Shown: positions 12,794 through 17,009 of the stretch, piece by piece
How the letters are laid out: each line of letters starts with the position of its first letter
Position numbering within the stretch: the first letter of the stretch is position 1
Assembly (NCBI RefSeq): GCF_000802235.1
Contig: NZ_JTDL01000082.1
Location: forward strand, 1-64,000
Reading direction: 5' to 3'
Source: Sinomonas humi
Lineage (GTDB): Bacteria > Actinomycetota > Actinomycetes > Actinomycetales > Micrococcaceae
DNA: 64,000 nt
The notes under the pieces: model-generated
Seen by the model: the letters and a program-made list of their open reading frames with translations, nothing else
Told to the model about the DNA's origin: nothing
Databases searched by the model: none
Position numbers and translations under genes: made by a program

Positions 12794-15337
12794 TCATGCC
12801 GGAACGATGTTCACCAACTTCGGGGCACGCACGATGACAGTGCGGATGCCCCGACCATCGAGGATGCGCTCCACATTCGGTGACGCGAGAGCGAGTTCCC
12901 GCAGGGCGTCCTCGGCAATGTCAGGCGCCACCTCAAGACGGTCCCGGACCTTGCCTTGGACCTGGACCACTGCCGTGACCGTCTCCTCCACAAGCAACGA
13001 CGGGTCGTAGGCGGGCCACTCGGCGTTCGCGACCGAGGGTTCGTGGCCGAGGGCAGCCCAGAGATCCTCGGCCGTGTACGGGGCGATGAGGCTCAGGATG
13101 ATCGCGACGACTTCGACCGCCTCGCGTACGGCAGGATCTGCCCCTCCGGGCCCGCTGTCGATCGCCTTGCGGGTCGCATTGACGAGCTCCATCGCCTTGG
13201 CGACCACGACGTTGAACTTGTGCGACTCGAGGAGCTCCGCGGCGTCGGCGAGGGTCCGGTGCGTGACGCTCCGCAGCGCGCGGTCACCCTTCGCGGGGTC
13301 GACGCCGGGCTCGCTCGTGACATCCTGCCCGAGGCGCCACGCCCGAGCGAGAAATTTCGCGGAGCCTGCTGGAGAAACGTCGGCCCAGTCGACGTCGTCC
13401 TCCGGCGGGGAGGCGAACACCATGGTGAGGCGCACAGCATCGACTCCGTACTGGTCGAGCTGCTCGCCGAGGTCGACGCCGTTGCCGAGGGACTTGCTCA
13501 TCGCCTTGCCGCCGTTGAGGACCTGCCCCTGGTTCATGAGCGCTGCGAACGGCTCGTCGAAGTCGATGAGCTCCATGTCCTTGAGGACCTTGGTGAAGAA
13601 CCGGCTGTACAGAAGGTGGAGGATCGCGTGCTCGACGCCGCCCACGTACTGTGCCACGGGCATCCAGCGCTTCGCGGCCTCCGGGTCGAACGGTCCCTCG
13701 GTGTAATCGGGTGAGAGATAGCGAAGGTAGTACCAGGACGAGTCCACAAAGGTGTCCATGGTGTCCGTGTCACGCTTGGCGGCACCTCCGCAGTTCGGGC
13801 ACGTGACATTGACCCAGTGCTCGGCCGCGGCGAGCGGGGAGGTTCCCTTCGGGGCCAGCTGTTCACCGCGAAGGTCGTCCGGGAGACGTACGGGAAGCTG
13901 ATCGTCCGGCACCGGAACCTCGCCGCACGCCTCGCAGTGGATGATCGGGATCGGTGCGCCCCAGAAGCGCTGGCGCGACAGGAGCCAGTCGCGGAGCCGG
14001 TAGTTGACCGTGCCCTCGCCCGTTCCCGCGGCTTCGACGATCTCGATGGCCTTTGCGATGCCTTCAGCCTTGGAGAGCCCGTCGAGCGGCCCGGAGTTGA
14101 TGATCGTCCCCTCGCCGGCCGTAGCAACTCCGGTCACGGCCGGGTCGTCCTCGCCGGTGTCGAGCACCGTGCGCACAGGCAGCCCGAATGCCCGGGCGAA
14201 GTCGAGATCTCGCTGGTCATGCGCGGGCACCGCCATGATGGCCCCAGTGCCGTAATCAGCGAGCACGTAGTCGGCGGCCCAGACGGGCAGCTTCTCCCCG
14301 CTGAGAGGGTTCACCGCGTAGCGTCCGAGGAACACGCCGGTCTTCTCGCGGTCAGTGTTCTGGCGCTCAATCTCGGAAAGCGCTTTGACCCGATCCTGGT
14401 ATTCGGCCAGAGCGGCCGCTTCCTCGGGCGCCACCAGTTCGGTCGCGAGGTCGGCGTCGGCCGCTACGACGAAGAACGTGGCACCGTAGAGCGTGTCGGG
14501 CCGCGTTGTGAAGACCGTGACCTTGCGCGACGGCTTGGTGCCGTCCCCGGTTGCCTCGACTTCGAAGTCGACATGCGCGCCCTCGGACCGCCCGATCCAG
14601 TTGCGCTGCATCGCGAGGACCCGCTCGGGCCAGTGGCCCTCGAGTTCGGTCATATCGTCGAGCAGGCGGTCGGCGTAATCCGTGATCTTGAAGTACCACT
14701 GGTTCAGCGCCTTCTTGGTCACGGGCGTGCCGCAGCGTTCACACGCGCCGTTGACGACCTGCTCGTTGGCCAGCACGGTCTGATCCTTGGGGCACCAGTT
14801 GACCGGGTGGTTCTTGCGGTACGCGAGCCCGCGCTCATAGAAGCGCAGGAAGAGCCACTGCGTCCAGCGGTAGTACTCGGGGTCGGAAGTGTGCAGACGG
14901 CGTGACCAGTCGAGGCTCAGTCCGTAGCGCTTGAATGACGCCGCCTGGGTGTCGATGTTCGCGTAGGTCCACTCGGCCGGGTGTGCGTTGCGCTTGATGG
15001 CGGCGTTCTCGGCGGGCAGGCCGAAGGAGTCCCAGCCGATTGGATGGAGCACGTCGTAGCCGCGAAGGCGCCAGTAGCGGGACACGACGTCACCCATCGC
15101 GAAGGCTTCTGCATGGCCCATGTGGAGATCGCCCGAGGGGTAAGGGAACATATCGAGGACGTACCGGCGCTCCCGGCTCCCATCGTCCTTGGGCGTGAAG
15201 ACGCCCAGCTTCTCCCATACCGCGGGCCACTTGGCCTCGATCGCGGCAAAGCTGTAGGCAGCCTCCCCCGCGGCCGTAGCCTCGGCTACGACCGCCTGCT
15301 CCGCGCCCTGCTGTTCGCTCACCCTGCTTCTCTCCAC
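12794..15337 (-). CDS. leuS: Leucine-tRNA ligase
   Basis: LeuRS charges tRNA-Leu in the cytoplasm. The 847-residue class I synthetase has HMGH (the HIGH motif) at 72-75, the CP1 editing domain including the [17 protein letters not shown] threonine/aspartate region, and AMSKS (the KMSKS motif) near 612. A zinc-type CxxC pair appears in both the ERCGTP and CPNCGG segments. GTG 15337 has GAGGTGA 7 bases upstream; GTG 15322 with GGAG 9 bases upstream is an equal alternative and removes five residues. An attenuator-like leader precedes it (15383-15462), implying control by leucine or charged tRNA-Leu. Confidence 0.97.
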
Positions 15338-15382
15338 TGTTCGTCACCTCGGCGTTACGACAGCATTCGTCCCCTGACACAC

Positions 15383-15405
15383 AAAAGCCCCTCACAGGGA
15401 GGGGC
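15383..15405 (-). terminator. Attenuator terminator of leuS
   Basis: On the minus strand GCCCCTC, a CCTGT loop and GAGGGGC form a 7-bp GC-rich stem followed directly by TTTT and then GTGTGT. It lies about 45 bases upstream of the leuS start and after the Leu-rich leader peptide. A terminator ahead of the gene rather than after it fits transcription attenuation; it may also end glpK read-through. Confidence 0.75.
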
Positions 15406-15406
15406 G

Positions 15407-15424
15407 GCCGCTCGCTGGAGCGGC
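15407..15424 (-). other. First hairpin of the leuS leader
   Basis: GCCGCTC and GAGCGGC form a 7-bp stem with a CAGC loop. Its 5' arm starts at the last base of the leader peptide stop codon, so a ribosome stalled on the Leu codons or resting at the stop would cover it. I could not find a clean alternative pairing with the terminator arm. Confidence 0.65.
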
Positions 15425-15450
15425 TAGCGAAGCAGGAGGATGCCGTGCAT
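15424..15450 (-). CDS. Leader peptide of leuS attenuator (MHGILLLR)
   Basis: An 8-codon frame, ATG 15450 to TAG 15424-15426, encodes MHGILLLR with three consecutive leucine codons CTC CTG CTT. It is located between the glpK stop and leuS, and two hairpins follow immediately. A TAGGAT box ends only 6 bases before the ATG, so the transcript may begin at or next to the start codon and be leaderless. The Leu run in front of a synthetase for leucine is the expected pattern for ribosome-mediated attenuation; this is inference from sequence. Confidence 0.75.
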   Translation of the reverse strand: MHGILLLR

Positions 15451-15456
15451 ACCGCT

Positions 15457-15462
15457 ATCCTA
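15457..15462 (-). promoter_or_regulatory. Candidate leuS -10 box
   Basis: TAGGAT on the minus strand fits the actinobacterial TAGRRT -10 form. It lies 6 bases before the leader peptide ATG. No good -35 hexamer is visible 16-18 bases upstream. Confidence 0.45.
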
Positions 15463-15491
15463 GCGCAGCCACGGCACCCTCCCGCCTCGGC

Positions 15492-17009
15492 CTAACGGAC
15501 GTCGGCGTCGACCCAGTCCATCGACTTCGTGACGGCCTTGGTCCACTGACGCATCAACCGGTCGCGCTCCGAGTGGTCAAGCTGCGGGCTCCAGCGCATG
15601 TCTTCGTCCCAGTTCGCGGAAAGCTCGCCGAGGTCGCCCCAAAAGCCGACGGCAAGTCCGGCTGCGTATGCAGCGCCGAGAGCTGTCGTTTCGATGACCT
15701 TGGGACGGACCACGTCCACTCCAAGGATGTCGGCTTGGAACTGCATGAGCGCATCGTTGGCGACCATTCCGCCGTCGACCTTGAGCTCTCGCAAGGGCAC
15801 GCCGGAGTCTCGGTTGACGGCATCAAGGACCTCCCGCGTCTGGAACGCCGTGGCCTCGAGGGCCGCCCGCGCAATGTGGCCTTTGTTCGCGTAGCGCGTG
15901 AGCCCGACGATCGCTCCGCGAGCGTCGGCACGCCAGTAGGGCGCGAAAAGCCCCGAGAAGGCCGGCACGATGTAGACGCCGCCGTTGTCCTTGACCGAGC
16001 GGGCAAGCTCCTCCACCTCTGGCGCGGTTCGGATGAGGCCGAGATTGTCCCGCAGCCACTGGACGAGCGAGCCGGCTACCGCGATTGAGCCTTCGAGCGC
16101 ATAGTGCGGCTCGCCTTCCCCGAGCTTGTAGCCGACGGTGGTCAGGAGGCCGTTCTTGGAGTGGACGATCTCCTCTCCGGTATTGAAGATCAGGAAGCAG
16201 CCCGTGCCGTAGGTGTTCTTGGCCTCGCCCTTGGCGAAAGCCGCCTGGCCGAAGGTCGCGGCCTGCTGGTCGCCCAGGATGCCCGCTATCGGGACCTCGC
16301 GCAGGAGTTGTGACGTGTGGACCTCCGCGTACACCTCGGACGAGGACTTGATCTCGGGCAGCATCGTTGCGGGGACGCCGAAGACATCTAGGATCTCCTG
16401 GTCCCACGAGAGGGTCTTGAGGTCCATGAAGAGGGTGCGGGACGCGTTGGTCACGTCGGTTACATGGACGCCGCCGTCGACTCCGCCCGTGAGATTCCAG
16501 ATGAGCCACGCGTCGGTGTTCCCGAAGAGGAGATCTCCCGCCTCGGCTCTGGCCCGGGCGCCTTCTACGTTGTCGAGGATCCACTTGATCTTCGTGCCGG
16601 AGAAATACGTGGCCAGCGGGAGGCCCACCTTGTCCTTGAAACGGTCGACGCCGCCCTCGGCCGCGAGCTCGTCGGCGATGGACTGCGTGCGCGTGTCCTG
16701 CCAGACGATCGCGTTATATACCGGCTCCCCCGTCCTCCGATCCCACACGACGGCGGTTTCGCGCTGGTTCGTGATGCCCGCAGCGGCGATGTCGTGCCGG
16801 GTCAGGTTCGCCTTCGAGAGGGCCTGACCGATCACCTCGCGGGTGTTGTCCCAGATCTCCCGCGGATTGTGTTCGACCCAGCCCGCCCGAGGGAAGATCT
16901 GTTCGTGCTCGAGCTGCCCCGTCGAGACGATCGAGCCCGCGTGGTCGAACACGATCGCCCGCGTGCTGGTGGTGCCCTGGTCGATCGCAAGGACGTACTG
17001 CTCAGACAT
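15492..17009 (-). CDS. glpK: Glycerol kinase
   Basis: GlpK phosphorylates glycerol to sn-glycerol 3-phosphate using ATP. The 505-residue FGGY-family protein starts with the phosphate-binding [15 protein letters not shown] (about 7-21), includes the [15 protein letters not shown] segment, and has the C-terminal signature [19 protein letters not shown]. The ATG at 17009 overlaps the end of glpD by 8 bases, so the two are translationally coupled. No glpF facilitator gene is present beside them. leuS follows behind its own leader. Confidence 0.97.

Follow-up and report, generated by a model that had tools for sequence, protein, structure and literature searches.

Between glpK and leuS of Sinomonas humi lies a frame of eight codons with three successive leucine codons, and the question is whether it senses leucine and controls the synthetase gene. 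The original prediction had taken the frame and the hairpins after it for a ribosome-mediated leucine attenuator of leuS. Comparison across relatives supports this reading: leuS is probably (at a probability of about 0.8) controlled by ribosome-mediated transcription attenuation, with charged leucyl-tRNA as the signal that is sensed. Leucine attenuation of this type, described before in a few Streptomyces, would then reach roughly one in two of the class genomes that were sampled. Our data also suggest that the antiterminator fold, the step usually assumed, is not conserved in leuS leaders. A covariance model and natural variants (a moved stop codon, a lost leader) make the mechanism testable. 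The window referred to below is the whole stretch of 64,000 nucleotides of contig NZ_JTDL01000082.1.

The element ahead of leuS in Sinomonas humi

With both strands read, the whole element was located on the minus strand between glpK and leuS (Table 1). The predicted frame MHGILLLR with CTC CTG CTT was confirmed in the sequence (minus-strand codon positions: ATG 15450, CTC 15438, CTG 15435, CTT 15432, stop TAG 15426-15424), and its neighbours were identified by NCBIfam. The hairpin predicted to start at the leader stop was found to begin at the G of TAG, and the leader RNA folded into this hairpin 1 and the terminator when the window sequence was used. A terminator scan of 15000-15700 found the terminator (2 overlapping matches; shuffles expect 0.3). 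The claim of a terminator with a T-run thus held for the terminator but not for an uninterrupted run, the tail TTTTGTGTGT being broken. Within its own genome of 4.4 Mb, CTTTTGTGTGT is present once, at the leuS element only, which ruled out that the tail is a common terminator style of this organism. The true start of leuS may be an in-frame GTG at 15322, which is preceded by GGAGAG.

Table 1 Features of the leuS leader region of Sinomonas humi (window positions).
Feature	Position	Strand	Basis or remark
-10-like box TAGGAT, putative leaderless promoter	15457..15462	-	sequence; 6 nt (AGCGGT), then leader ATG
Leader ORF MHGILLLR*, ATG CAC GGC ATC CTC CTG CTT CGC TAG	15424..15450	-	sequence; short Leu-run frame conserved
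Last Leu codon CTT, 5 nt ahead of hairpin 1, proposed stall codon	15430..15432	-	CTT in 130/141 parsed elements
Hairpin 1, GCCGCTC-CAGC-GAGCGGC, first base is G of stop TAG	15407..15424	-	folding; conserved and covarying
Terminator hairpin, GCCCCTC-CCTGT-GAGGGGC, 1 nt past hairpin 1	15387..15405	-	terminator scan; conserved
Terminator tail TTTTGTGTGT	15377..15386	-	exact in 90/95 leuS upstream regions
leuS, leucyl-tRNA synthetase, GTG 15337	12794..15337	-	NCBIfam TIGR00396; start read from sequence
glpK, upstream neighbour, outside the switch	15492..17009	-	NCBIfam NF000756

No sigma-70 consensus -35/-10 pair was found in 15000-15700. At gathering scores, Rfam models, including T-box and other leaders, matched nothing in the window, and the element itself drew only sub-gathering matches; at the element of one Streptomyces-type locus (L231), Rfam gave no match. 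A 20-nt inverted repeat (85%) joins window positions 15428-15447 in the leader frame with 15470-15489 upstream of the promoter box. Its identity is 17/20 in the window and 15/20 and 14/20 in its two nearest relatives, values that none of 100 shuffles reached in any of the three. In the remaining 10 of the 13 Sinomonas elements it is near background, with 5 to 99 of 100 shuffles doing as well, and the repeat was rejected as a shared feature.

Conservation, geometry and distribution of the element

A LeuS search gave 95 upstream regions, from all 15 genomes of the genus and 80 named loci (the best 80 of 584); six genomes are represented twice. The named loci belong to Sinomonas, Arthrobacter, Pseudarthrobacter, Paenarthrobacter, Kocuria and others. 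Eighty of the 95 loci show a strict pattern in which a short frame contains three Leu codons in succession and follows closely on TAnnnT. Among the 15 misses, one Leu codon of the run is substituted in nine (L023, L027, L030, L049, L051, L069, L088, L091 and L096), two of them (L023 and L069) in a seven-codon register. The remaining six are L028, L041 and L054, whose leader stop is gone, L005 and L017, whose frame is decayed, and the Kocuria locus L094, which has no element upstream of leuS. Where the tail was not exact, four of the five regions carried one- or two-base variants of it.

Elements were then counted in sets. Eighty-five distinct Micrococcaceae elements were gathered by rule (TAnnnT 5-8 nt ahead of the start and at least two Leu codons), four with variant tails being added by hand, so that in this set the rule itself accounts for part of the promoter spacing and Leu content; this applies less to the 80/95 count and to the counts on 54 loci below. 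Codon 7, counted without a CTN rule, encodes Leu in 84 of these 85 elements and is CTT in 79, and the 85th is a register slip. The last Leu codon differs among elements at its third base (CTT, CTA or CTG) without a change of residue. Alignment A1 holds 69 of the 85 elements, near-duplicates and L023 being left out; L005/L017 and L094 are absent from all element sets.

Several natural variants were seen. The leader stop is lost (CAG or AAG) in L028:1838-1931, L041:1841-1934, L054:1841-1934 and L069:1877-1969; in the first three, the frame runs for 17 codons, crossing hairpin 1 as far as a TAG in the 3′ arm, and in L069 it runs for 10 codons to a TGA. In S. gamaensis (L005/L017, one genome) the frame is decayed, with ATT for ATG and a single Leu codon remaining out of three, yet the two hairpins and the tail persist. 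This leader is, by its sequence, a natural loss of the sensor. By eye, an extra hairpin with apparently compensating changes lies just ahead of the leuS ribosome binding site in L028, L030 and L049 (Arthrobacter/Pseudarthrobacter), and a GC-rich stretch (CCCGCCCGCTTCGCGGTGCCCACCACACC...) with inverted ends, perhaps a repeated element, recurs upstream of the leader promoter in L027, L028, L030 and L051.

The distance of the promoter box was measured in 54 loci picked without regard to a promoter. TAnnnT ends 6 nt (39 loci) or 7 nt (7 loci) ahead of the start codon, that is in 46 of 54, whereas a control stretch placed 24 nt farther upstream contains any TAnnnT in 1 of 54. For the full set of 148 elements, many of which were collected by the promoter rule, the spacing is 6 nt in 116 and 7 nt in 21. 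The original prediction had suggested from the TAGGAT box that transcription begins at the start codon, and the reading of the leader transcript as putatively leaderless is supported by this spacing together with the leaderless S. lividans homologue described in the available part of PMC8079986.

The 148 elements comprise 143 distinct ones, and 141 were parsed (7 failed); two of them (L089 and L217) had been parsed wrongly, so that folding used the other 139. The parse required CTN eight bases ahead of hairpin 1, so that the 5-nt spacing and the nearest Leu are imposed. Counted back from hairpin 1, the three regulatory positions carry Leu in 141 (the nearest, required by the parse), 128 and 131 of 141 elements, and positions further upstream in 8/141, 4/141 and 0/139. 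Among 48 parsed elements that were found by the model and not through any rule on Leu frames, 37 have three Leu, 9 have two and 2 have one. The last Leu codon, for which the parse required CTN, is CTT in 130 of the 141, CTA in 8 and CTG in 3; CTT makes up 41 of the 323 Leu codons in seven window genes. One codon follows the last Leu in 110 elements, four in 23, five in 5 and ten in 3 (141 elements), so that the stop codon falls either where hairpin 1 begins or within it. The stop thus moves, while 5 nt always separate the last Leu codon from hairpin 1, as the parse demanded (7/148 failed). The gap between hairpin 1 and the terminator is 0-3 nt in 139 of 141, the other two being the mis-parsed elements.

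RNAalifold returned two hairpins from the 69 aligned elements. Without fitting to a model, 5 of 14 pairs were changed on both sides, which was equalled by 1 of 500 shuffles. Over 74 elements from several families, 10 of 14 pairs were two-sided against 4.3 expected (0 of 500 shuffles), although fitting to the model biases this alignment in its favour. With Micrococcaceae as its only source, a covariance model (R1) matched 158 of 295 family genomes at E up to 0.001, from 18 of 32 genera, and 63 of 297 order genomes at E up to 0.1, from 34 of 94 genera. The conservation of Leu codons and terminator in Micrococcaceae, on which the original prediction had staked its reading, was thus borne out, although 137 of the 295 family genomes (14 of 32 genera) had no R1 match under strict filters. 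Of 60 places sampled from the family and order R1 matches, 54 have leuS directly downstream; the six without a downstream LeuS match were left out, and some of the 54 come from genomes also among the named loci.

R1 also recovered nine of nine Streptomyces-type loci (a label that we infer for class-level loci) selected through LeuS and by scanning for Leu frames with a leaderless start (E 3e-9 to 0.003). Only these nine class-level loci test R1 independently, since the other 65 of the 74 sources are 18 training rows and 47 earlier R1 matches. The scan found a frame in 10 of 25 loci, many of the others starting mid-gene and giving no true negatives. Six of the scanned Streptomyces-type frames read MRAVRLLLSEPR, the published LeuL2 peptide of S. 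lividans. A broader model (R2), with training loci from 14 of the 149 class genomes that it matched, found these 149 among 296 class genomes at an E-value limit of 0.01, in 69 of 115 genera. With the limit tightened to 1e-6 there were 114 R2 matches, 60 of them checkable because the place of LeuS was listed for their genomes; in 58 of the 60, LeuS follows on the same strand after 27-171 nt (48 of 50 after removal of training genomes). Weak R2 matches in the own genome, the second best of which is an apparent tRNA gene followed by a terminator, were set aside as candidates for further elements.

Proposed mechanism and alternatives

According to the proposed mechanism, transcription would start at or beside the leader ATG, and a 70S ribosome would begin on the leaderless mRNA and reach CTC CTG CTT. 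With ample Leu-tRNA, the ribosome would pass, terminate and leave, hairpin 1 would close beside the terminator, and most transcripts would stop at TTTTGTGTGT. With scarce Leu-tRNA, it would pause when CTT, the last Leu codon, occupies the A site. A ribosome protects about 15 nt counted from the first base of the P-site codon. The stalled footprint would cover the 5′ base of hairpin 1 (GCCG), keeping hairpin 1 open, and polymerase would read into leuS. Both stalled and terminating ribosomes would cover the 5′ arm of hairpin 1; because they would differ in the duration of their stay, the presence of the ribosome on hairpin 1 is proposed as the signal. The leader very probably lets Sinomonas humi, a soil bacterium, make more LeuS when charged leucine tRNA is short. 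As to how termination is decided, the odds are somewhat below even that hairpin 1, 0-3 nt from the terminator, aids termination by timing or stacking and that the presence or absence of the ribosome, not a 2:3 fold, is the signal. Counting against the switch, leader and terminator are separable, S. gamaensis having kept its hairpins after loss of the start codon and of two of the three Leu codons. The four leaders with a lost stop, the 137 family genomes lacking an R1 match and the Kocuria locus L094 weigh on the same side.

The most obvious alternative concerns the RNA fold. When the stalled ribosome was masked, the terminator stem kept a probability of at least 0.9 in 133 of 139 elements, and equilibrium RNA folding therefore does not explain the switch. 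Neither equilibrium folding, from Micrococcaceae to class level, nor pair counts in Micrococcaceae uncovered a mutually exclusive conserved antiterminator, in agreement with the remark in the original prediction that no clean antiterminator fold could be seen. Pairings of the leader Leu codons or of the tail (GTGTGTC) with the terminator arms were also inspected by eye, and nothing was consistent across groups. The only candidate found pairs the 3′ arm of hairpin 1 with the 5′ arm of the terminator. As in a classical attenuator, a ribosome on the 5′ arm of hairpin 1 would free GAGCGGC to pair with GCCCCTC long enough for polymerase to pass. Antiterminator and terminator hairpins were described for Streptomyces leuS leaders, as far as the available part of Seliverstov et al. 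(PMC1262725) goes, and the stalled intermediate of the window forms a hairpin of -7.1 kcal/mol before the 3′ arm of the terminator is made. Once that arm is made, however, the terminator wins. Four of the five antiterminator pairs form in 61/67 up to 69/69 Micrococcaceae, but the fifth is broken in 30 of 67, and in the window sequence a C-C mismatch breaks the helix. Only 8 of 500 shuffles equalled the share of paired cells, yet much of this conservation follows from the two hairpins using the same bases. On stalling, this pairing rises on average from 0.27 to 0.45 in 13 Sinomonas elements, whereas it goes from 0.31 to 0.37 in other Micrococcaceae, from 0.29 to 0.23 in the order outside that family, and from 0.24 to 0.13 in class-level genomes. 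The 2:3 antiterminator was thus rejected as a conserved feature, given the pair breaks and the little gain on stalling outside Sinomonas, and we consider the classical scheme unlikely for this element. A kinetic antiterminator effect is possible, above all in Sinomonas.

Two other explanations would leave the leucine frame with a lesser role. The position of the element between the two genes, with glpK within 1.3 kb upstream in 57 of 94 loci, could mean that the terminator merely ends the glpK transcript and that the short frame is incidental. The other 37 of the 94 loci, nine class-level ones included, carry the element without glpK in that interval, a promoter box stands at a fixed distance ahead of the frame, and the Leu codons and their position are conserved. 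A terminator belonging to glpK itself was rejected on the ground that the element is kept without glpK, and this explanation is highly improbable. It is also conceivable that the terminated leader RNA acts in trans, or that a protein binds the hairpins, the Leu frame only tuning the response; the hairpin bases and the tail, exact in 90 of 95 loci, are indeed conserved in sequence beyond the needs of pairing. This view is at odds with the location of strong R2 matches in cis to leuS (58 of the 60 checkable) and with sister elements that change their codons and their target gene together. We give it little credence, if slightly more than the one centred on glpK.

Known systems and sister elements

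Membership of the element in the leuS attenuator type already described in Streptomyces is strongly supported by sequence comparison. In the portions of the sources available, leuS attenuators were predicted in S. avermitilis and S. coelicolor (Seliverstov et al. 2005, PMC1262725), and LeuL2 of S. lividans precedes leuS, is leaderless and is followed by a hairpin and a uridine stretch (PMC8079986). The present element resembles these in its gene, its putatively leaderless LLL leader and the succession of hairpin and terminator (PMC8079986; PMC1262725). Its Leu-run short frame lies directly upstream of leuS, and its hairpin and its terminator with a U-rich tail are homologous to the Streptomyces ones, judging from the nine of nine loci recovered by R1 and from covariation. 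The core CTTCTGCTTAGCNAGCCGC is common to Arthrobacter and Streptomyces-type leuS leaders. In Micrococcaceae, the codon GAG of Streptomyces is mostly replaced by the stop TAG (95/102), and the peptide therefore has 8 codons and ends where hairpin 1 begins, whereas the Streptomyces-type leader has 12 codons and ends inside hairpin 1.

In the literature searched for leuS leaders and attenuators, as far as the texts were available, we found no description of leuS leaders outside Streptomyces. Lopatovskaya et al. 2010 (doi 10.1134/S0026893310010164) may already list further leuS leaders, and for this reason the Micrococcaceae leaders are not claimed here as unreported. Two features go beyond the accounts that we found in print: the last Leu codon fixed 5 nt ahead of hairpin 1 while the stop moves, and the lack of a conserved antiterminator.

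The trp, leu and his attenuators of enterobacteria likewise have a leader peptide rich in the sensed residue, a hairpin and a terminator ahead of the gene. The leuS leader shares with them the enrichment in codons of the sensed residue. Unlike them, it is putatively leaderless, its three regulatory codons form one run, and equilibrium folding and pair counts revealed no conserved, mutually exclusive antiterminator. The ilvB-II motif of Corynebacterium is similar in that a uORF with I/L/V codons overlaps a hairpin (P1) that is followed by a terminator (P2), and its reporter was high in minimal and low in rich medium; it differs in its gene and in a proposed antiterminator between the P1 loop and the 3′ side of the terminator (PMC10272879, in the part available). 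The LEU element before leuA is another leucine gene leader of Actinobacteria with upstream Leu codons (PMC1262725), and LeuL1 before leuA is leaderless in S. lividans (PMC8079986), as the leuS leader here putatively is. In contrast to the leuS leader, a pseudoknot and no typical terminator are reported for the LEU element in the available portions of both papers (PMC1262725; PMC8079986), and the gene is different.

Some weaker R1 and R2 matches showed the same layout with other codons upstream of other genes. Of 20 places inspected, 6 precede leuS, 10 an acetolactate synthase gene and 4 a citramalate synthase gene. The acetolactate synthase leaders (L257, L258 (VHSILVVIEHVA), L260, L261, L265, L269, L270, L271, L272 and L273) are rich in I/L/V codons, and most have the two-hairpin layout. 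Those of citramalate synthase (L259, L262, L263 and L266) have Ile codons and the two-hairpin layout; their peptides include LHHVIIIR (L259), MQHRHIVIP and VTRSLIIT, the frame of L263 not being among them. As the sister elements were found by models that contain the layout, their layout is not independent evidence, whereas their codons, which differ according to the target gene, do provide it. A literature search on such leaders found no report of an attenuator before citramalate synthase genes; ilvB leaders are already known.

We tentatively suggest, at odds somewhat below those given to the role of hairpin 1 itself, that an attenuator design without an antiterminator is common to the leuS, ilvB and cimA leaders of Actinomycetia, in which the ribosome on the last regulatory codon (mostly NTT) would decide termination. 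The hairpin held open would have its base exactly under the leading edge of the ribosome and would abut the terminator. Visual inspection of the 14 sister elements showed that in 10 of them the final I/L/V codon has TT as its last two bases, with NNN NAG and then the hairpin after it.
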